Origin: a bacterium | Lineage (GTDB): Bacteria > Bacteroidota > Rhodothermia > Balneolales > M1805 | NCBI GenBank assembly: GCA_006226965.1 | Contig: SBGQ01000116.1 | Location: 1 to 34,208 of the forward strand | DNA: 34,208 nt | Direction of reading: 5' to 3' | Shown: in pieces, positions 115 through 18,237 of the stretch | How the letters are laid out: each line of letters begins with the position of its first letter | Position numbering within the stretch: position 1 is the first letter of the stretch | Position numbers and translations under genes: made by a program | The notes under the pieces: model-generated | The model's database searches: none | What the model was told of the DNA's origin: nothing | Seen by the model: only the letters and a program-made list of their open reading frames with translations

Positions 115-1280
115 TTTTCCAGACGTTGTAATAAAACATCCAACCGGTTCAGTGCGGAATTAAATTGTTCTCGTGTAGAACCGGTTTTTTCTTTGTAAAG
201 GATAAACTCATCTTGCTCTAATAAGATTTCATTAAGCATAAAACCGTGCTTTTCTAAAATTGGAGCTAATTCTTTTCTTCTTTTTTTGATGTCTAGTAAG
301 GTAAGACGGTAGGCGTGTTCACATACTTCTTTACGTGTTGAAAAACTCAAAATATTATTAAAGAACATGCGGTAATCCGTTGCAGGCGGTTCGAATATAA
401 CGACATCAGCATCAGGGTATTTTTGTGCATAGCCTTTTAGCCCGGCTTTCATTCTGGAATGAATCATCATTCTGAACGTTTGAGATAAAATCGTTGGCAA
501 GCCTTTATCAACTAGCGAGCCGAATTCAGATTCTTCGAGATCATGTTCTAATGGAACTATCGGATTTATTCCAATAACCAGTTTTACATCTTCATTAAAA
601 GCTACGGAGGCGTGGATCGTTCTTCGAGCTACACCATCCACATACTGTCGGCCTTCAATTTCTACAGGAGCATACACTCCTGGCAAAGCAGAAGAGGCTT
701 GTACTGCTTTTGAGATAGGTATATGATCGAATCCGTCTTCGCCGAAACGAACAGTTTTTCCGGAATCCAAGTCAACGGCGACAATACGAAGCATGGTTTT
801 TAGTTCTCTGAAATCGTTTGTTTTACCGTCTTTATTAAAATTGTCTCTTAGGTAGGCTTCTAGAGGAGCGTTATCAAATACACCGTTTGGCAGCAATTCT
901 GTAAAGTCTGCTAAAGCCCCAAAAAGAGAATTATCTCGCATATCTGATGTATAGGAGCGAATGACATCAATAAATTTACCGGGGAGTTGAAATAGTTTTC
1001 CGGCTACTTCCTTCAAGTTTGGCTTGTATAAAATCTCCGGGGAGATTGGGTTAACTCCATCAAGGTGCGATAGGATGGCAAGACTCATATCTCTGGGAGA
1101 AATATCGTTAACTAGGTTCGAGCAGATAAGTGCACCCGCACTAACGCCGACATAAACGTCCATTTGTTTGGTATTTAATCCAATAATAGCATCTTCCAAT
1201 GCACAAAGGGCGCCAATTTCATAAACGGCACCTTCAACGCCGCCGCCGGCACATGCTAAACCTAGTTTTTTTGTACTCAT
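111..1280 (-). CDS. Patatin-like phospholipase family protein
   Basis: This 389-residue protein is a predicted serine acyl hydrolase of the patatin family, which cleaves acyl esters with a Ser-Asp dyad. The glycine-rich oxyanion loop (AGGGVEG, residues 11-17), the nucleophile elbow GVSAG (Ser47) and the dyad motif DG (Asp215-Gly216) are all present and in family order. There is no signal peptide, so it should act in the cytoplasm. The C-terminal 150 residues are family-specific and not assignable. It lies downstream of two phasin genes and a PhaR-type gene on the same strand, although a terminator separates it from them. That context suggests action on granule lipids or polymer, as an inference. 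Substrate is unknown. Confidence 0.85.
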   Translation of the reverse strand: MSTKKLGLACAGGGVEGAVYEIGALCALEDAIIGLNTKQMDVYVGVSAGALICSNLVNDISPRDMSLAILSHLDGVNPISPEILYKPNLKEVAGKLFQLPGKFIDVIRSYTSDMRDNSLFGALADFTELLPNGVFDNAPLEAYLRDNFNKDGKTNDFRELKTMLRIVAVDLDSGKTVRFGEDGFDHIPISKAVQASSALPGVYAPVEIEGRQYVDGVARRTIHASVAFNEDVKLVIGINPIVPLEHDLEESEFGSLVDKGLPTILSQTFRMMIHSRMKAGLKGYAQKYPDADVVIFEPPATDYRMFFNNILSFSTRKEVCEHAYRLTLLDIKKRRKELAPILEKHGFMLNEILLEQDEFILYKEKTGSTREQFNSALNRLDVLLQRLEN

Positions 1281-1366
1281 ATTTTCCTGTCTATCCGCCT
1301 GTTCGACCCAAATTAAAAGAGTCAGGTTTTAAAAGCTACCTTCTGAACACTATTTTGATCAGAAGT

Positions 1367-1399
1367 AAAAAAGGCTTCACAGCCGAAGCCGGAAGCCTT
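1367..1399 (-). terminator. Rho-independent terminator after the first phasin gene
   Basis: On the minus strand an 8-bp stem AAGGCTTC / GAAGCCTT is followed directly by six T residues. An alternative shorter stem GGCTTC / GAAGCC uses the loop. It begins 4 bases after the stop codon of the 1404-1757 gene and separates it from the patatin gene. Confidence 0.8.
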
Positions 1400-1403
1400 A
1401 AAT

Positions 1404-1757
1404 CTATTTTGAATTAAATTTTTTATGAAGAGCTTCTACTTTTTGAGTGAGAGCGTCAATCTTTGAACTTAATTCACGTACTTGTTTTTGTGTTGGAATT
1501 CCGACGTGATTTACAACATCTTCCACGGCGGTATCCACTTTGTTTTGAATATCTTGTTGAACCGCAGTTGCTTTTTTTACAACCTCATCAACTGTTTTTT
1601 TTGCGGTTTCTTCCGTTTGTTTCTTTATGGATTCACTTTTCGATTTAATATCGCGTGCCAATTTCGCCGCTTCTTCTTCAATCGTTGCTACAGTTCCTAA
1701 GCCAAATAGCCAAACTTTTCGAGCCGCTTCGTCTAATTCTTTTACTTTATCCGACAT
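1404..1757 (-). CDS. Phasin family protein
   Basis: This 117-residue protein matches the phasin (polyhydroxyalkanoate granule-associated) family: a conserved N-terminal helix containing ARKVWLFGLGTVA, then a long Lys/Glu/Ala/Thr-rich amphipathic helical region, then a C-terminal coiled-coil heptad stretch (SSKIDALTQKVEALHKK). Phasins coat the surface of polymer granules. A longer frame begins at a TTG at 1778, but that codon lies against the T-run of the preceding terminator, so the ATG at 1757, which has AAGGG 8 bases upstream, is preferred. It is a paralogue of the next gene upstream, sharing the W-L-F/A-G-L-G motif and the 'IP' break before the C-terminal coiled coil. Confidence 0.82.
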   Translation of the reverse strand: MSDKVKELDEAARKVWLFGLGTVATIEEEAAKLARDIKSKSESIKKQTEETAKKTVDEVVKKATAVQQDIQNKVDTAVEDVVNHVGIPTQKQVRELSSKIDALTQKVEALHKKFNSK

Positions 1758-1769
1758 TTTCTTACCCTT

Positions 1770-1804
1770 AAAAAACAATTACACCGGTTTTCACGCCGGT
1801 GTAA
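1770..1804 (-). terminator. Rho-independent terminator between the two phasin genes
   Basis: A perfect 9-bp stem TTACACCGG / CCGGTGTAA with an 8-base loop is followed on the minus strand by AATTG and six T residues. It lies just after the stop of the 1822-2238 gene and just before the start of the 1404-1757 gene, so the two phasins are probably expressed at different levels or the second has its own promoter. Confidence 0.8.
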
Positions 1805-1821
1805 CTACATTCAACTTTGGG

Positions 1822-2238
1822 TTATTTTGCTGCAGGTTTCTCTGCAGCAGGCTTTTTAGAAAGTTCTTCAACTTTTTTAGTAAGCGTTTCAACTTTAGAA
1901 ATAAGTGATTTTACTTCATCACGACTTGGGATATCGAAGCGATCTAGAACTTGCTTTACGGTATCGTCTAAAGTTTCAGATACTTTGCTGGTTACTTTGG
2001 TTTCGGTGTCTTTTGCCATTGTTTTAACAGAATCAACCAAAGATTCGATTTCTTTTTTGCCTTTTTTCTCAAAAGCTTCACCCTTTTCAACGAGTGAATC
2101 ATATAAACGTACACCTTCGTCTTTAGCAGATGCTAATGCACCTAATCCGGCTAACCAGATTTCACGTGCTTTATCCGTTACGTTTTTTTCCATGTCTTTG
2201 ATGTCTATAAGCGACTTTTCTTTTTTTTCTTTAGCCAT
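1822..2238 (-). CDS. Phasin family protein
   Basis: A 138-residue phasin paralogue. The N-terminal helix carries the conserved AREIWLAGLGALASA motif (about residues 24-38), followed by a Lys/Glu/Val-rich helical body, the break DRFDIPSRDEV, and a C-terminal coiled coil ending in a Pro-Ala-Lys tail (KKPAAEKPAAK) typical of phasins. It begins 20 bases after the phaR-like gene with a good ribosome binding site (GGAG, 6 bases before ATG), so the two are probably cotranscribed. Its likely role is coating and stabilising polyhydroxyalkanoate or similar granules. The polymer itself is inferred, because no synthase gene lies in the window. Confidence 0.85.
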   Translation of the reverse strand: MAKEKKEKSLIDIKDMEKNVTDKAREIWLAGLGALASAKDEGVRLYDSLVEKGEAFEKKGKKEIESLVDSVKTMAKDTETKVTSKVSETLDDTVKQVLDRFDIPSRDEVKSLISKVETLTKKVEELSKKPAAEKPAAK

Positions 2239-2258
2239 TGGTGTTCTCCGTTTAGAGG

Positions 2259-2684
2259 TTAATTTTTGTTTTCTACATCAACTGAAAGCTGCTCGATAAG
2301 GTGCTCTAAGGTTTGTACTTTTTGTTCGAGCTGAGCAATTTCTTCTTTATTTGAACGAGGAATCCATTTTGAAAGTGAATCCTGAACCAGTTTATCAACA
2401 CCTTTCATTACCTGATCGACTCCGCGGTCGATTACTGTATTGCCCCAACGAATCATATCGTGAAGTACTTCAGCCGGAATTGCAGAATTCCCTTTTTTTC
2501 CTTCTTCGAAAATAATTTGGGTTAAAATCTGATTGGTGATTTCGAGTCCGCTTTCGTTATCCATCACTTGCACTTGCTCATTATTTCTGATAAGAAATGC
2601 CACATCATCTAATGAAACATACTTCTTGGTGAGTGTGTCGTAGAGTTTGCGGTTTGGATAACGTTTAATTATTCGGGTTTTCAT
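2259..2684 (-). CDS. phaR: PhaR-type polyhydroxyalkanoate synthesis regulator
   Basis: This 141-residue protein opens with the hallmark IIKRYPNRKLYDT of the PHB/PHA accumulation regulator DNA-binding domain (residues about 4-65), followed by a helical region and a C-terminal coiled coil (residues 112-137). In studied bacteria PhaR represses phasin genes and its own gene by binding TGC-containing operators, and is released when it binds nascent polymer. Here it heads the phasin cluster, and a strong promoter with palindromes inside and beside it sits 22-71 bases upstream, as expected for autorepression. No clear Shine-Dalgarno precedes the ATG. Family assignment is strong. The autoregulation is inferred from sequence. 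Confidence 0.88.
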   Translation of the reverse strand: MKTRIIKRYPNRKLYDTLTKKYVSLDDVAFLIRNNEQVQVMDNESGLEITNQILTQIIFEEGKKGNSAIPAEVLHDMIRWGNTVIDRGVDQVMKGVDKLVQDSLSKWIPRSNKEEIAQLEQKVQTLEHLIEQLSVDVENKN

Positions 2685-2705
2685 CGTGTTTAATTAATTT
2701 CAAAA

Positions 2706-2736
2706 CAAATATAACGCACTGCGTCATAAATGTCAA
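2706..2736 (-). promoter_or_regulatory. Promoter of the phaR-phasin operon
   Basis: Read on the minus strand the region contains TTGACA, a 17-base spacer and TATATT. The last element continues as TATATTTG, matching the Bacteroidota TAnnTTTG box, with TTG 20 bases upstream. It fits both sigma consensus forms. It ends 21 bases before the phaR start codon. Confidence 0.75.
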
Positions 2737-2755
2737 GAAAAATATGACGCAGCGT
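2714..2755. promoter_or_regulatory. Paired palindromes, likely PhaR operator
   Basis: Two short palindromes, ACGCA-C-TGCGT (2714-2724) and ACGC-A-GCGT (2747-2755), are arranged as a larger inverted repeat in which CTGCGTCATA faces TATGACGCAG. Their centres are 32 bp apart, close to three helical turns. The first lies between the -35 and -10 elements of the phaR promoter and the second just upstream of -35. The TGC/GCA half-sites agree with known PhaR operators. Binding itself is an inference. Confidence 0.6.
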
Positions 2756-2816
2756 GTCAAAAAAAATATTTCCTGCGATATTTTGCTCAATTCGAATGGT
2801 TTTGTCATATTCAAGT

Positions 2817-3350
2817 ATGATAAAACTACCAGACAAGAGAACTTTATATCTGTTTTATGAGCGAATTTCTTTAGGTAAAAAAGAAAGATTAGCCATCTTG
2901 GTTTTATGCTCATTAATAATCGGTGTCGAAACAGTACGTCTAGCCAAGCTATATGTGTTCACAAACAGAGATACATATGATTATGCGGAACTTAATGCAT
3001 TAATTGATAAACGAACCTTGCAGATGCAACAGTCTTACGATTCTTTGATAACTGCGAGATATAATCCGGCTCCGATAGCAGAAGTGGTTGAAGTAAAGGT
3101 TGAAAAGAAATCAACTAAAAAGACTACTAAACCTAAAGTGAGCTTAGGGTTAAATAGCTTAGATATTAATCTAGCAGATGCAAAAGAGTGGGAGGCATTA
3201 CCACGAATAGGACCAAAGACGGCTCAAGCTATAATTGATAAACGTATTGAATTAGGCGGATTTACAGCCATCGAAGAGTTGTTGAAAGTAAAAGGAATCG
3301 GTCCTAAAACGCTGGAGCAAATAAAACCCTATTTAAAAGCTCTCGAATAG
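2817..3350 (+). CDS. ComEA-like helix-hairpin-helix protein
   Basis: With the ATG at 2817 the product has 177 residues: a short cytoplasmic N-terminus, one membrane segment (about residues 24-41, LAILVLCSLIIGVE), a Lys-rich linker (VEKKSTKKTTKPK), and a C-terminal helix-hairpin-helix domain beginning LDINLADAKEWEALPRIGPK and ending with VKGIGPKTLEQIKPYL. This is the layout of ComEA-type DNA receptors used in natural transformation, and also of generic envelope HhH proteins. A longer frame from a GTG at 2754 would overlap the phaR operator and is unlikely. It is transcribed away from phaR, so the second palindrome could influence it. No other competence genes are nearby. Confidence 0.75.
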   Translation: MIKLPDKRTLYLFYERISLGKKERLAILVLCSLIIGVETVRLAKLYVFTNRDTYDYAELNALIDKRTLQMQQSYDSLITARYNPAPIAEVVEVKVEKKSTKKTTKPKVSLGLNSLDINLADAKEWEALPRIGPKTAQAIIDKRIELGGFTAIEELLKVKGIGPKTLEQIKPYLKALE

Positions 3351-3443
3351 AATAATCAAAGAAAAGCGTAAAGTGCTTTTATGGCTTATTCATTTTAGTA
3401 TATTTTACGAATTAAGGGGAAATAACTTGTTTTCAAATACATT

Positions 3444-4109
3444 ATGCTTTCATTTATTGTCTTAGTACTTATTTCATATGTAGTTGGGTCAATTCCGTCA
3501 TCTGTATGGGTTGGCAAAGTAACGAAGGGTATTGATTTACGTGAGCATGGCAGTGGAAATGCCGGCGCTACAAATACATTTAGAGTGCTTGGCTGGAAAG
3601 CAGGTGTCTTTGTTGTCATAATCGACTTTATTAAGGGCCTCACCGCAACCTTGTGGGTCATGAAATTAGCGCCTTACTTTGGTGAGCTACCGCAATGGTT
3701 TATGGATGGCAACGAATCTGTATTAAAAATCATTTTAGGTTTTACGGCAGTTATTGGGCATACGCTCCCTATTTTCGCACAATTTAGAGGTGGTAAAGGG
3801 ATGTTGACAGCTTGTGGGATGTTATTTGGAGTTGAGCCTATTTCAATTGGAATTGCGACAACAACATTTTTGGTTGTCATGTTTTCTAGCCGGTACGTTT
3901 CTCTGGCTTCAATCATTTCATCAATAGTTTACCCGATTATGCTGCTCATTCTAAAGTTTGGATTTGGAATGAACATCAGTTATGTGTTGATTGTTTTGGC
4001 AACATTGTTGTGTGTGTTTTTGATTTATAAACATCGTTCGAATATTACCCGCTTAAAAGCCGGTAATGAAAACAAAATCCCTGCTTTTTGGAAGAAAAGC
4101 GAGAAATAA
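3444..4109 (+). CDS. plsY: Glycerol-3-phosphate acyltransferase PlsY
   Basis: PlsY transfers the acyl group of acyl-phosphate to glycerol-3-phosphate to make lysophosphatidic acid in the inner membrane. The 221-residue length and all three conserved loops agree: GSIPSSVWVGK near residues 15-25, the phosphate-binding loop HGSGNAGATNTFRVLG, and GHTLPIFAQFRGGKGM in the middle. Five or so hydrophobic segments are seen. It is followed after 12 bases by gpsA, which makes its substrate glycerol-3-phosphate, so the two form a pathway operon. The Lys-rich C-terminus (KKSEK) is unremarkable. The ATG is the only sensible start before the first membrane helix. Confidence 0.95.
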   Translation: MLSFIVLVLISYVVGSIPSSVWVGKVTKGIDLREHGSGNAGATNTFRVLGWKAGVFVVIIDFIKGLTATLWVMKLAPYFGELPQWFMDGNESVLKIILGFTAVIGHTLPIFAQFRGGKGMLTACGMLFGVEPISIGIATTTFLVVMFSSRYVSLASIISSIVYPIMLLILKFGFGMNISYVLIVLATLLCVFLIYKHRSNITRLKAGNENKIPAFWKKSEK

Positions 4110-4121
4110 AAGGATAGAAAC

Positions 4122-5129
4122 GTGAAAGTTACTGTAATAGGTGCCGGAAGCTGGGGAACCGCATTAGCCATTGTTCTAGCTCGAGCAGAACACGATGTAC
4201 TCATTTGGGCTAGAGAGCAAGAAATATCGTTCGGAATAAATAATTTCCACGAAAATAAGACCTATTTACCGGGTGTTACCTTACCTGATAGCATTGTAAG
4301 TCACACCGATTTATCAGAATGTTTACAAGAGCGCGATTTAATTGTATTTGCAACGCCATCTCATACAACACGCGAAGTAGCTTCTAAGGTGAAGCCGATG
4401 CTTAGCGGAAATGAAATTTGTATTACGGTTTCAAAAGGAATTGAAAACGGAACATTTATGACGATGTCTCAGGTACTTACAGAAGTACTGAATGGAAAAA
4501 TTATCGAAGATCATATAGGCGTTTTATATGGACCGTCTCATGCTGAAGAAGTTTCAAGAAACAAGCCGACCTTAGTTGTTGCATCAGCGAACTCAAAATC
4601 AACAGCAAGAATTATTCAAGAAGCATTCATGACTCCCATGTTTCGTGTGTATGTAAATCAGGATGTAATGGGTGTAGAAATTGCAGGTTCAGTTAAAAAC
4701 GTAATCGCTATCGCAGCGGGAGTAATAGACGGAGCGAACTTAGGTGATAACGCTAAAGCTGCTTTATTAACTCGTGGTTTAGCAGAAATGCGTCGTCTTG
4801 GAATGCATTTAGGTGCATCGCAAGATACGTTTTCAGGATTGGCAGGTATGGGAGATTTAATTGCAACCTGTACATCACAACACTCCAGAAACAGATACGT
4901 GGGTTATCATGTAGGTAAAGGCGAAAAAGTTGATGCCATAATTGCACGCATGAATATGGTTGCCGAAGGTGTTAAAACAACCAAATCTGTTCATGGCTGG
5001 GCAACAAAACTTGGGATCACCATGCCAATTACAGAGGCTGTATATAAGGTGCTTTTCGAAGATTTTGACCCTAGAGATGCTGTTTTCCAACTCATGACTC
5101 GCGATCCTAAAGAAGAGCACAGAAATTAG
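4122..5129 (+). CDS. gpsA: Glycerol-3-phosphate dehydrogenase [NAD(P)+]
   Basis: GpsA reduces dihydroxyacetone phosphate to sn-glycerol-3-phosphate for phospholipid synthesis. The 335-residue protein has the N-terminal Rossmann motif GAGSWGTALA (residues 7-16), the substrate-domain stretch EIAGSVKNVIAIAAG, the LTRGLAEM helix and the GLAGMGDLIATC motif. The start is GTG, preceded by AAAGGA at a good distance. It follows plsY by 12 bases, which couples substrate formation to the acyltransferase. No strong terminator follows: only a 7-bp hairpin without a T-run at 5147-5172. Confidence 0.96.
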   Translation: MKVTVIGAGSWGTALAIVLARAEHDVLIWAREQEISFGINNFHENKTYLPGVTLPDSIVSHTDLSECLQERDLIVFATPSHTTREVASKVKPMLSGNEICITVSKGIENGTFMTMSQVLTEVLNGKIIEDHIGVLYGPSHAEEVSRNKPTLVVASANSKSTARIIQEAFMTPMFRVYVNQDVMGVEIAGSVKNVIAIAAGVIDGANLGDNAKAALLTRGLAEMRRLGMHLGASQDTFSGLAGMGDLIATCTSQHSRNRYVGYHVGKGEKVDAIIARMNMVAEGVKTTKSVHGWATKLGITMPITEAVYKVLFEDFDPRDAVFQLMTRDPKEEHRN

Positions 5130-12661: not shown

Positions 12662-13531
12662 TTATCGTCCTCTTCCTCTGCGATTAGACGATTTCTCTCT
12701 TTTCTGTTTTTGATTTTCTTTCCCGGCTGATTTAAATGTTTTTTTTGAGTTGCCAGTTGCCGGTTTTTCGTTATTTCTTTTGGGTTTTGATGATTGTTTA
12801 GGTTTGGGCTTCGATTGTTTTTTTTCAGCCCCGTCTGATGAATCTTGAATGGCATCGAAGATAGCTTTTAGCTCTTTATCAGATAATTCTCTCCAATCGC
12901 CAACTGCTAATTTCCCTAGATCGACATTCATAATTCGAATACGTTGTAAGCGAACAACATCATATCCAAAATGCTCGCACATACGGCGAATTTGTCTGTT
13001 TAATCCTTGAATCAAAATGATTCGGAATACAAATTCACTTTCCTTTTTTACAAAGCATTTTTTGGTAACCTGACCCAAAATCGGAACCCCCGAACTCATG
13101 CTTTTTACAAATTCATCAGAAATAGGTTTGTTTACCGTAACGATATATTCTTTCTCGTGCTCATTCCCGGCTCGTAGAATTTTATTCACGATGTCGCCAT
13201 TGTTCGTGAGCAGAATCAAACCTTCGGAATCTTTATCCAGTCTGCCAATAGGGAAAATGCGCTTTGGGAAATTCAGATAATCGATGATATTGTCTTTGGT
13301 CGTGTTTTCTGTTGTACTAACTATCCCAACAGGTTTATTCAGAGCAATATAAATGTCCTGAGTTCGGTCTTTTATGATGCGTCCGTCCACACGAATTTCA
13401 TCAGAACTTTCAACTTGAACGCCAATTGTAGCTTTTTTCCCGTTTACAAAAACGCGCCCTTGTTCGATCATCGCATCTGCTTCGCGACGAGAACATAATC
13501 CGGTATCAGAAATAGCTTTATTTAAACGCAT
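12662..13531 (-). CDS. rluF: 23S rRNA pseudouridine synthase, RluF-like
   Basis: This 289-residue protein has an N-terminal S4 RNA-binding domain ([20 protein letters not shown]) and an RsuA/RluB/E/F catalytic domain with the nucleophile Asp99 in GRLDKDSEG. The segment [19 protein letters not shown] and [20 protein letters not shown] point to RluF, which modifies U2604 of 23S rRNA, rather than RluB. Residues from about 230 form a Lys/Ser/Arg-rich tail ending RRGRGR. Its ATG overlaps the stop of the giant PKD gene by one base (TAATG), so it is translationally coupled to an unrelated envelope operon. There is no terminator before yefM. Confidence 0.9.
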
Positions 13532-16500
13532 TATTCAGCAACAACGGTTACGGTAAAACGAAGCGGTTTTGAACCTTCAACGTCGAATTCTTTAACCACA
13601 ACAGTAAACTGATTTTCACCTTTTTTAACCGGTACAATTAAGGAAGTTCCATAGCCGAGTGAACCCGTTGTGCCGAACCATTCGCTGTCTAAAGCATCCG
13701 GATTAGGACGATTTAATGCAGGTAAAGTAAGCGATGCAAAAGGGTTGGCAGGATTCCATTTTACGATTACTGCTTCGGGTTTATCATCAACCAAAGCTAA
13801 TGGTTCGAATACTTCAACCGGAAAGCTAGTTTGCGCCAAAACGGTATCACGTGGAGTCCAAACCCAGCTAAGATTAAAACTTCCGACTTGTGTAGCTGTC
13901 CAGGATTTTTGTTGATTTCCATCAATAGATAAAAACACTTTTTCCGGAGCATGATAAGTAGCTGCAGAAATTGTATATCCCTGAATTACGTTTCGCGGAG
14001 CGTAATAAAGCATATTTGGCGGTTGAACGATATGTACCATTTTAGAAACGGAATCAACCGCATTTTCTAAACCGCTTTCATCATTTTGTATCAATTTAAT
14101 TTGATAGGCATTTGCAGTGGCAACAAAGGCTGTTGTATCCATTTTTGAACCGTTTACCATCCATGTAGTGGTCAGTTTTTGCCCCTCAGCATCATTGATT
14201 TCTGAGGGCACTAACTGTATAGATTCCCCTTTGTAAATCACATTCGGTAAGTTGAACTGTGAAATTGGCGGAGCATTTACTGTAAATGTTTCGGTTTTAG
14301 AAACGGTTCCGCTAGTTACTCCAGAGTTATCGCTTATCGTTAAACCTAAGGTGTAATTACCGGGTTTTAAGAATCCTAATTGAACTTCCAAACCGCCTTC
14401 GATTTTGTTGCCGTTAAGAGTCCAAGTATAGGTTTGAATAAATCCGTCTCGGTCGCCGGAACCTGTTGCACGAACTCTTACTGCTTTATTATGTGCATAA
14501 ATCGGTTTTTTATCCCAAGCTAACACAGGCGGGAAGTTCACTCGCATTTCTTTCTTTGCATATGAGATATTACAATCAGAACCGGATTCAACTTCGACTA
14601 TCAATTGAATAGTCAATTTTCCGGATGATTGTGGTGTGAAGCGCTGTTGTAAACCTTGTAATTTGGTTTCAAAGCTATCCGGATTGGTTACAATCCACTG
14701 AGCACCTTTTAAGGTTCCGTTAAGCACAGACTTCGAAGCATCGAGCGTGATAACTTCACCCGGGTTTGTCCATTCAGGAACTTCAAAACGAGCTTCAGGA
14801 CCTTCCACAACGCGAACGGTAGCCGTTGTTACACTGGTGTTGCTACAATTACCTGCATCAGAACCGATTACGGTTAGTTGAACCGTGTAGGTTCCGGCTC
14901 TATTAAACAGGTGAGTTACCTGGGTTCCGAATCCAACCGATTCATCACCAAAATCCCAAGAATAAGCACCAATTGGTCCGTTCGGGTCGGTACTTTTACT
15001 TCCGTCAAAAATCATCGGTGTGTTTACACAAATGGTTGTGTCAACAAAATTAATTCTTGCTGTAGGTGAACCGGAAACTTTAACCGGAATTTTTGCAATG
15101 GTTGGCTCTGCTGATATGCCGTCGTGCAAGGTTAAAGTAGCTGTGTAAACACCCGGTTTTTCGTATGTGTGATAAGGGTTGTTATCTCGAGACGTATTTC
15201 CGTCACCAAAATCCCACTGAGTGGAGAATTGGTCGCCATCAGGATCGTAACTTCTGGCACTGGAGAAAATGATAATCTGCCCTGTACATGATTCAATCAA
15301 TGAATCAACCAAAGCAACTACAGGTCTATTTACTAACACATCAATTCCGGTAGAAATAGTACTGTTTTGCAAGCCGTCTCGGTCGTTTAATGTAAGTCCG
15401 ATTTTATAATAACCGCCAGCCGGAGCATTCCATGTGAGTTGCGGTTCAGATTGTTTAGTTCCATCCGGTAGAATCCAGGTGAACTCTAGAGGTGAGCCGT
15501 CAGCATCATAACTTTTTGCGGCATTAAGAACAACAGCTTTTGAGTTGGTAACAATTCGTTGTTCAGTTACAATTATAGGGCTGGCGTTTACCCGAATGGT
15601 TTCTTCGTAAACAGTTTTTGAATTCGTTAAACCATTATTATCATCTGCGGTAATTTTGAAGCTAAATGTGCCCGATTGTGAGAAGGTGTGAGAAATTTGT
15701 GCACCTGTATAAGTTTTTCCGTCGCCGAAATCCCAAGTAAAGTTCAGGTTTTTATCATCAAAATCGAAAGAATTGCCAGCCGAAAAAATCGTTTTTTTAC
15801 CGGGCTCAGTAACAGTAGGCGTTGCTGTCCATTCAATTTCTGGCGGAAAGTTCACACGAATTTTTCGTGTTTTTTTATGAATTGCTGAGTCAAAACCGGA
15901 ATCGTCTTTCACCTGAAGCTGAATTACATGCTCACCGGGTTCTGCAATGCTATAGGTAAACTGCTCACCGCTTCCAATTTGTTTTCCCTGATGAAACCAT
16001 AGGTATTGAGTTACATTTCCGTCTTCGTCTTTACTTTCTGAGCCGTCTAAAACGAAGCGTTCGTTTGGAGCAACTAGCGTTTTTACTGAAAATTGTGCAA
16101 TCGGATTTTTGTTAACGATGACTTCTTTTTGGATGGACTGTACCGAGTTTGCCATGTTTTGACCATCATCAACCGTTAAGGTAACCGTGTAGGTTCCGGC
16201 TCTGGAATATTGATGATTTACCTGTGAACCTTGCGCCGTTGAGTTATCACCAAAATTCCACGAATAAACCGCAATGGATTGGTCAGAATCAGAGCTTTGA
16301 TCTGCACGAAATACAACTAACGCGTCATTTGTTTTATCAACAGAAGTTATAACAGGTACTGGTTCTTCGTTAACTCTAATCGTTTTTTTGATGGATTTGA
16401 TGGAGTTAGAAACACCTTGTTTGTCATTTACGGTTAAGGTTATTTCATAATCTCCGGGTTTTTCAAAAGCGAGTGCAAATTGTGGATTTTGAGATGTTCT

Positions 16501-18237
16501 TCCGTCAGAAATTGCCCAAGCATAGGATAATCGATCTTGGTCTGGGTCGGTACTTGGAGCAGCATTTAGGTTTAAAATCTGATCCGGAGCTATCAAATTA
16601 GGTAACGTAAAAGCCGGTTCCGGAGCGCCGTTAACTTTAAAACTGCGTATTGTCTCAAAAGAAGCATTGGTTGTTCCGGAAATATCATTCACCGTTAATT
16701 TTACGTCGAATGTACCGCGTTCGGCATGGTTCACTAAAATGCTTTCCGAAGTATTTGAACCCTGAATGCCGTTTACTTCCCATGAAAAAGCCAAAGAATC
16801 ACCGTCAGAATCCAATAATGAAGCAGCTGTAAAACGGGTTTGAGTACCTAATGCTACAATCGGATTGAGTTCGATTTCCCCATAAGGTTGTGTGTTGATG
16901 CGAATCGTAAAGGTGCTGTCAACCGTTGAACAAGCAGAACCCGGTGTTTTATCGTCCAAGATTAATCGAACTCTGTAGTCTCCTGAGGTAGAGGCCGAAA
17001 AGTTTAAAAGCGGCGCATCTCCACGATAAACGCCATCAACAAACCAAGCAAAACTTAATTCGCTGTTTTCCGGGTCGGATGACTCTTGAGCGTTTAATTC
17101 AAGAACTTCACTTGGGGAAATTATCGATTTGAACCCCTTTAACACCAAATTCGGTTTTTGATTCACAAAAACAGTTGGTTCAGTAACTTTGTAAAGAGGG
17201 GTATATCGTCCTTTTGTTGGTGTTATAAGTTGAAGTTTTACACTTCCTTTTTGGGTGAATTTATGCTGGGTTTCAATTCCGGTAAAACGTCTGTTTTCGA
17301 GCAACCAAATTGTTTTTTCCGGCGCGTATTCATAGGTATTGGCATTCACTCGTAACTGAAATTGATCACAATCTTTTCCGGCATTCGAAATTAAAGTCGG
17401 TGCAGAAAGTGTTTCACTTTGTTTGATAATCGGGCTGATAATCCATGGTGTAATTCCGTTTTCAGTCTGAATTACCATGTTGTTTAAGCGTTCAGAAGAG
17501 CCGCTTAATTCCAAAGCCCATGAATTCTCCAAACCAAAGCGTTGTACTTGAAATACATTTTCGGGCGTGATGACGTCACCAAAGGCATCGAGTACAGAAA
17601 CTTTGGTGTCTTCTTCACCGGTAACGACCAAATTTTGTGGTGCTACTTTATCAAAAAGAGGTTTTAATTGAATACGCGTATTCGGATTGGTTTTGTAGAG
17701 TCCAATCACCAAATCCATCGAAACTAAATCGAATAATTTGTCTGTTTGGTTGATGAAACGCACATTAAAGTTGTTTACATCGTCGCCGTTATCTGTTTTT
17801 GCTCGTAGAATCCAACCTTGTTCTGCGGTTTCTGTCAGTTGTAGAATTTCTACCCAACGGTTCAGGTATTTTTGTTCAGCAAGAATGGAAATGGATAAGC
17901 CTTTAACACTGTCTGTTCCGGTAATTTCCCGAACGGAATTGCCTTGTACGGTGTATAATTTTTCGAAAGGAATCAGTTCAAACGTAGTTGTTGTACTTGG
18001 TTTTCCTGCTAAAACATCAGCGAAACCACCGATTCCGGCATCATAAATTTCAAATTTAGGGAGAGCTTTTACGGTATCGGCTTTCGGACGTAGCCATAAA
18101 TCGTACACCCCTTTTTTATCGCCGGATTGTACCCGAACCTGCTGCCCGGAAATCGAAAAATACACTTCCTGAGCAAATAGATGTTGAAAGCTTAACGCTC
18201 CCAATATCAGACCAATAAGAACACACTTTTTCATCAT
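13531..18237 (-). CDS. Giant secreted PKD-repeat protein
   Basis: This 1568-residue protein has a signal peptide ([20 protein letters not shown], cleavage near FAQ). Residues about 24-355 form a region I do not recognise. From about 360 to 1395 there are 12 tandem PKD (Ig-like) repeats of about 87 residues, most beginning VNxxP and containing SxDxDG and WxFGDG motifs (examples [26 protein letters not shown]). The last 170 residues are a separate beta-rich segment with no sorting tail such as YPNP. PKD arrays form stalks in surface adhesins and carbohydrate-binding enzymes, but no catalytic domain is visible. It starts 1 base after the FecR-domain gene and overlaps rluF by 1 base. Probable cell-surface protein; ligand unknown. 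Confidence 0.88.

Follow-up and report, generated by a model that had tools for sequence, protein, structure and literature searches.

The two phased palindromes in front of phaR in this window (the whole 34,208-nt stretch of DNA analysed here) very probably serve as the operator through which a PhaR-family repressor controls both its own gene and the phasin genes downstream. Work on PhaR, mostly in Proteobacteria, has treated it as the sensor that matches phasin supply to PHA granules. An operator of the PhaR type is known in kind; what is new is probably its setting, in which the supposed signal, PHA, appears to be absent. One operator, its place in the promoter often fixed, recurs across Bacteroidota, Calditrichota, KSB1 and Acidobacteriota as well as at some other loci, mostly in genomes with no recognisable PHA synthase, and this raises the testable question of what signal PhaR responds to in genomes that lack the enzyme.

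Table 1. Features of the phaR-phasin locus and its promoter, in window coordinates
Feature	Position	Strand	Basis or remark
Patatin-like lipase, 389 aa	111..1280	-	PF01734
Terminator-like hairpin, phasin 2 / patatin gap	1373..1390	-	
Phasin 2	1404..1757	-	PF05597; start ATG 1757
Terminator-like hairpin between the two phasins	1775..1808	-	
Phasin 1, 138 aa	1822..2238	-	PF05597, TIGR01837; 20 bp behind phaR
PhaR-like regulator, 141 aa	2259..2684	-	PHB_acc_N (PF07879) DNA-binding domain
Promoter-operator unit of 33 nt, present twice at 76% identity	2693..2758 (2693-2725, 2726-2758)		
-10 element TATATTTG, phaR promoter	2706..2713	-	TATATT in sigma-70 sense
Operator site 1, proximal, putative	2712..2726		TAACGCACTGCGTCA, core CGCACTGCG = YGCRNYGCR
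Spacer TTTATGACGCAGTGCGT, 17 bp	2730-2714	-	Between TTGACA and TATATTTG
-35 hexamer TTGACA, phaR promoter	2731..2736	-	Promoter scan and direct read
Operator site 2, distal, putative	2745..2759		TGACGCAGCGTGTCA, core 8/9 positions

The regulator gene lies on the minus strand together with two phasin genes and a patatin-like lipase gene (Table 1). Its product matches PF07879 over the whole domain with 90.6 bits (cut-off 25) and misses the PhaR equivalog TIGR01848 (82.8 bits versus 109.45, model positions 1-82 of 107). The C-terminal part is predicted to be helical; a Pfam search detected no further domain there, nor one common to most of the 17 homologues scanned alongside. The AlphaFold model of the protein has a pLDDT of about 90-95 in the N-terminal domain and a pTM of 0.46. 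Foldseek searches with this model returned nothing at E <= 0.001, the best match being ExbD at 0.08, and a PDB sequence search for the DNA-binding domain gave no convincing match, with the better scores falling mostly on the coiled-coil C-terminal part.

Phasin 1 passes both PF05597 (102.5 bits, cut-off 28.8) and TIGR01837 (96.2 bits, cut-off 94.7), while phasin 2 passes PF05597 (60.9 bits, cut-off 28.8) and stays below the cut-off of TIGR01837 (63.4 bits versus 94.7). A genome-wide phasin search identified these two as the only phasins of the genome. Within the class as well as in other phyla, the patatin-like lipase is a conserved neighbour of phaR and phasin. Read-through from phasin 1 into phasin 2 may be attenuated by the hairpin that separates them, and because a second terminator-like hairpin precedes the patatin gene, that gene may form a separate transcript. 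Elsewhere in the window, positions 13531-18237 of the minus strand encode a secreted-looking protein of 1568 aa with many PKD-like repeats, as judged by eye.

We read the upstream region directly. The phaR ATG is at 2684 on the minus strand, the intergenic region spans 2685-2816, and the minus-strand read of the region upstream of phaR is TTGACACGCTGCGTCATATTTTTCTTGACATTTATGACGCAGTGCGTTATATTTG. The promoter proposed in the first-pass annotation, TTGACA, 17 bp and TATATTTG, is present at 2736-2706 on the minus strand; it scored 11/12 consensus matches in a sigma-70 promoter scan and was the best of four candidates in the first 3.5 kb. Both of the palindromes described there were also located, ACGCA-C-TGCGT in the spacer at 2714-2724 and ACGC-A-GCGT upstream at 2747-2755, and the large inverted repeat has arms at 2714-2728 and 2743-2757 that are 87% complementary. 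The block reads equally well as a 33-nt direct repeat or as a large inverted repeat. The conserved operator unit is 15 bp long, TRACGCANYGCGTYA. In this register, which is backed by relatives, site 2 reads TGACGCA-G-CGTGTCA with its centre at 2752, and the two centres are therefore 33 bp apart and not 32 bp as first proposed. Site 1 lies within the 17-bp spacer of TTGACA/TATATT and covers the first two bases of the -10, while site 2 lies immediately upstream of the -35. The offset from the -35 to the operator is identical in relatives and in other phyla. On the far side of the intergenic region, a divergent gene (2817-3350, plus strand) encodes a helix-hairpin-helix protein resembling ComEA. 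The ATG of this gene follows site 2 by about 60 bp, so PhaR might influence it too.

Taken without relatives, palindromy and proximity are weak evidence, because shuffled windows contain on average about 0.7 comparable close pairs of imperfect palindromes each. A profile built from 77 sites in other genomes of the class, which leaves out the window's own genome, gave sites 1 and 2 the two highest scores of the 34-kb window, 23.9 and 16.2 bits, against 7.8 bits for the next match. Similarly, a profile from 62 sites in other phyla gave them 21.1 and 15.7 bits, again ranks 1 and 2, with the next at 6.9. Across the whole 3.78-Mb genome, these are the sole places within one mismatch of TGACGCANYGCGTCA. 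We also sought a genome-wide regulon with a loose motif and rejected it: at 3 mismatches the counts were 104/105 versus 101/89 for the reversed control, and since the motif is no commoner than this control, further targets in the window's own genome are not claimed.

PF07879 is present in 56/196 sampled genomes of the class, and a protein search yielded further PhaR homologues from the window's order. The set used for upstream comparison comprises 56 loci, one per genome, with 27 from the window's order and 29 from the wider class; it overlaps with, but differs from, the 56 PF07879-positive genomes. The first-pass annotation had staked its operator on conservation upstream of phaR in relatives, and a loose box (at least 11/14 positions, within 200 bp upstream of phaR) was found 5' of phaR at 55/56 of these loci, compared with 14% of shuffled sequences. 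Two or more loose boxes occur at 45 of the 56. The sole locus without one sits on a contig with just 20 bp upstream, and one of the matches (L018) is weak. Box spacing varies by lineage: most of family f5 has 22 bp, f8 and f16 have 23-24 bp, and most others have 27-33 bp. The strict box TRACGCRNYGCGTYA occurs in 39/56 PhaR-positive versus 11/140 PhaR-negative class genomes (Fisher p = 5e-18); because these genomes are related, this and the other co-occurrence p-values are descriptive, and the counts are not phylogenetically independent.

Phasin genes away from phaR provide independent evidence that the box marks a phaR-phasin regulon. Genomes of family f12 (the Salinibacter family) carry the strict box a second time, just 5' of a phasin gene at another chromosomal location and usually as two tandem copies spaced about 29-34 bp. 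This box-bearing phasin gene is usually divergent from clpB, as in L084 (among L073-L091), with the operator at 4001, the phasin at 4095-4754 and clpB at 1015-3705. The divergence of phasin and clpB, a disaggregase gene, hints at a link between phasins and protein quality control in this family. The box also offers a ready motif for phasin regulon searches.

We scanned GTDB genomes with an alignment of PhaR-like proteins. The best 80 loci belong to Calditrichota, KSB1, Acidobacteriota, Chloroflexota, Bdellovibrionota, Myxococcota and others; a few are from the window's class. At 47/79 loci among these best 80, the 150 bp upstream of phaR contain the strict core YGCRNYGCR (shuffles, 4.5%). In Calditrichota, the phasin gene comes first and phaR second, with the sites in front of the phasin gene. 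The Bdellovibrionota loci among the best 80 (e.g. L194, L199, L206 and L214) have no strict YGCRNYGCR in those 150 bp, and no phasin was detected near the PhaR homologues of this phylum (within L194-L221), where the PhaR regulon may differ. The composite TTGAC-N-TGMCGCANTGCGKTAT, whose spacer holds the operator, is found at 11/56 class loci and 32/73 other-phyla loci and in none of 100 shuffles. The locus had initially been credited with a different promoter type. However, the operator-in-spacer layout is also seen at loci of Calditrichota, KSB1, Acidobacteriota and Deltaproteobacteria, so that the promoter type is not peculiar to the window's lineage. A Bacteroidota-type TAnnTTTG -7 box is not supported either: the terminal TTTG of TATATTTG is not kept in relatives, in which the -10 reads TATATTTA, TATATTGA or TATATTAC, and other phyla mostly have TATAAA or TATATT.

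The box shares its core with experimentally studied PhaR sites. In Sinorhizobium, the PhaR motif is WNWD2NYGCRNYGCRNH2WNW, and mutation of the palindromes abolished the EMSA shift (PMC12542648). Site 1 fits YGCRNYGCR at 9/9 positions and site 2 at 8/9. The Rhodobacter sphaeroides PhaR site is CTGCNNNGCAG (PMC12542648), and the Ralstonia PhaR palindrome is YTKNTGCRNYGCANMAR (PMC12849132). A close parallel is the S. meliloti PhaR (AniA), with which the window shares the core, a phasin target and two copies flanking the -35, the arrangement reported there for both phaP1 and phaP2 (PMC12542648). The two differ in their flanks, TGA/TCA here and AT-rich in S. meliloti (PMC12542648). Moreover, the S. 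meliloti PhaR binds PHB in an organism with a PHB synthase, whereas no synthase was found here, and autoregulation is weak there, in contrast to the strong sites in the phaR promoter here (PMC12542648). The Sinorhizobium study argues that PHB producers in general probably do not share negative autoregulation of phaR (PMC12542648), whereas the autoregulatory layout is the most conserved feature in the window's class. The PhaR of Ralstonia eutropha (Cupriavidus necator), a repressor of the phasin gene phaP1, is of the same regulator type, and YTKNTGCRNYGCANMAR has the same palindrome geometry (PMC12849132). The outer core base is T/A in Ralstonia and C/G here, and the Ralstonia protein is sequestered by PHB. 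Together, the conserved box, the first and second profile ranks and the known core strongly support the initial proposal that PhaR has its operator in this promoter.

The position of the sites suggests how repression could work. With one site in the spacer and -10 and the other directly 5' of the -35, bound PhaR dimers would exclude RNA polymerase, and a distance of 33 bp, about three helical turns, might allow them to cooperate. As hydrophobic inclusions form, PhaR would be sequestered on their surface and repression would lift, and the derepressed phasin would then coat the inclusions, as modelled on proteobacterial PhaR. Sequestration on an inclusion is proposed by analogy, given that the protein falls short of the equivalog cut-off and that its C-terminal part gave no further Pfam match.

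With respect to the nature of the inclusion, the locus had first been described as a complete candidate circuit. Part of a PHA circuit is indeed present, namely the regulator and two phasins, but the search for a PHA synthase in the genome found none. PhaC_N (PF07167) had no match in this genome, which is rated 100% complete, and the best match to the class III model TIGR01836 reached 27.7 bits (cut-off 365), an alpha/beta-hydrolase match in an ORF whose N-terminus resembles a signal peptide. Because a PHA synthase was not found, ordinary PHA is unlikely to be the inclusion here. Within the class, convincing synthases occur in 3/56 PhaR-positive genomes (G008, G012 and G022, all class III) versus 1/140 PhaR-negative genomes (G185, class I), leaving 53/56 PhaR-positive genomes without one. 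Among the genomes of the best GTDB loci, nearly all from other phyla and of unstated completeness, 3/40 carry a convincing synthase.

Phasin and WS/DGAT genes follow a different distribution. Phasins above cut-off are found in 55/56 PhaR-positive versus 0/140 PhaR-negative class genomes, and WS/DGAT (wax-ester/triacylglycerol synthase) in 41/56 versus 4/140 (p = 5e-25). According to a coordinate comparison, with several loci read, WS/DGAT has a phasin gene no more than about 1.6 kb away in 20 genomes from families f12, f16 and f19. A patatin-like lipase gene follows phaR-phasin at many class loci, and patatin accompanies phaR at 39 of the best 80 GTDB loci, 32 of which also have a phasin. The co-occurrence of phasin and WS/DGAT with PhaR suggests that the phaR-phasin-patatin cassette may serve non-PHA hydrophobic inclusions, perhaps neutral-lipid droplets, which class-wide are the best-supported alternative to PHA.

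It is thus conceivable, at somewhat less than an even chance, that PhaR and phasin in this class serve triacylglycerol/wax-ester droplets and that the droplets sequester PhaR as they do MLDSR in Rhodococcus. This reading refines the operator explanation as to its signal and does not compete with it. In the MLDSR-MLDS system of Rhodococcus jostii, the regulator binds the promoter of an operon holding its own gene and that of the coat protein, and lipid droplets sequester MLDSR and set its availability (PMC5504291). The likeness is one of principle, across different phyla, and no common descent is claimed. Triacylglycerol inclusions have also been reported to carry Ralstonia PhaP1 (Hanisch 2006, cited in PMC5972917), and the tracking of PhaR by WS/DGAT, the WS/DGAT-phasin pairs in three families and the adjoining lipase point in the same direction. 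However, WS/DGAT had no match in the window's own genome or in 14 other PhaR-positive class genomes, mostly of f5 and f12, so droplets made by this enzyme leave the present genome and most of f5 unexplained, and shared ancestry may account for the association. We also looked for PhaR boxes at the WS/DGAT-phasin pairs; most pairs have none, and direct control of WS/DGAT is therefore not claimed.

At a similar chance, PhaR may not be basically a PHA sensor: outside the Proteobacteria, the phaR-phasin-patatin cassette and its one conserved operator could control the coat of other inclusions, likeliest triacylglycerol/wax-ester droplets, with the PHA role as one specialisation. This would provide a candidate route for the regulation of lipid-droplet coat proteins in these phyla. 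A literature search, mostly outside subscription journals, returned nothing relevant on PhaR or phasins lacking a PHA synthase, or on phasins in Salinibacter.

We consider it unlikely that the organism makes PHA through an unrecognised or missing synthase, with PhaR sensing PHA and the patatin-like protein acting as depolymerase. The clustering of phaR, phasins and patatin would fit, as would the patatin-like PhaZh1, a PHA-granule depolymerase of Haloferax (cited in PMC4823750), the patatin-domain protein Slr0060, isolated with PHB granules from Synechocystis (PMC7203880), and the three class genomes that combine PhaR with a class III synthase. Yet the present genome lacks PhaC_N and offers at best the sub-threshold class III match, convincing synthases are rare among PhaR genomes both in the class and in other phyla, and a search for PhaR boxes in the synthase surroundings (12-14 kb) of G008, G012 and G022 found no strict form. 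The slr0058-slr0061 operon of Synechocystis resembles the window in uniting a PhaF-like phasin with patatin-domain genes; unlike here, phaEC is present in that organism, and the available part of the source reports no PhaR-type gene in the operon (PMC7203880). At L222-L224, which come from these three genomes (family f8), the pha cluster is separate and a LysR-like regulator gene precedes it.

It is more doubtful again that the phasins are chiefly stress chaperones and that PhaR answers aggregates or membrane stress instead of storage inclusions. An Azotobacter phasin is chaperone-like and reduces stress (PMC5658603), which agrees with the clpB neighbourhood in the Salinibacter family, but the window has no clpB neighbour, and neighbouring patatin and WS/DGAT genes suggest lipid. 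Finally, it is highly improbable that the palindromes are the site of another regulator or the transcription terminator of a neighbouring gene: a terminator-like match does overlap site 1, but box and phaR co-occur class-wide, unlinked phasin genes carry the box and the box contains the known PhaR core. We rejected the terminator reading of site 1 because the box is conserved as an element upstream of phaR and phasin.

Two small proteins were observed near the phasin and WS/DGAT genes. One is conserved, carries the sequence RYWTPxFVExFVEAINxDxEFQ or similar and occurs at L229, L238, L228 and L237 (near WS/DGAT), L240 (2546-2986) and L244 (2258-2695); it is possibly a lipid-binding partner. The other, with the sequence ELxKxFEVxWxxExVFELLSxVPKSVAHFPKV, directly adjoins WS/DGAT in two Balneolales genomes (L241:4218-4682 and L242:3859-4326).
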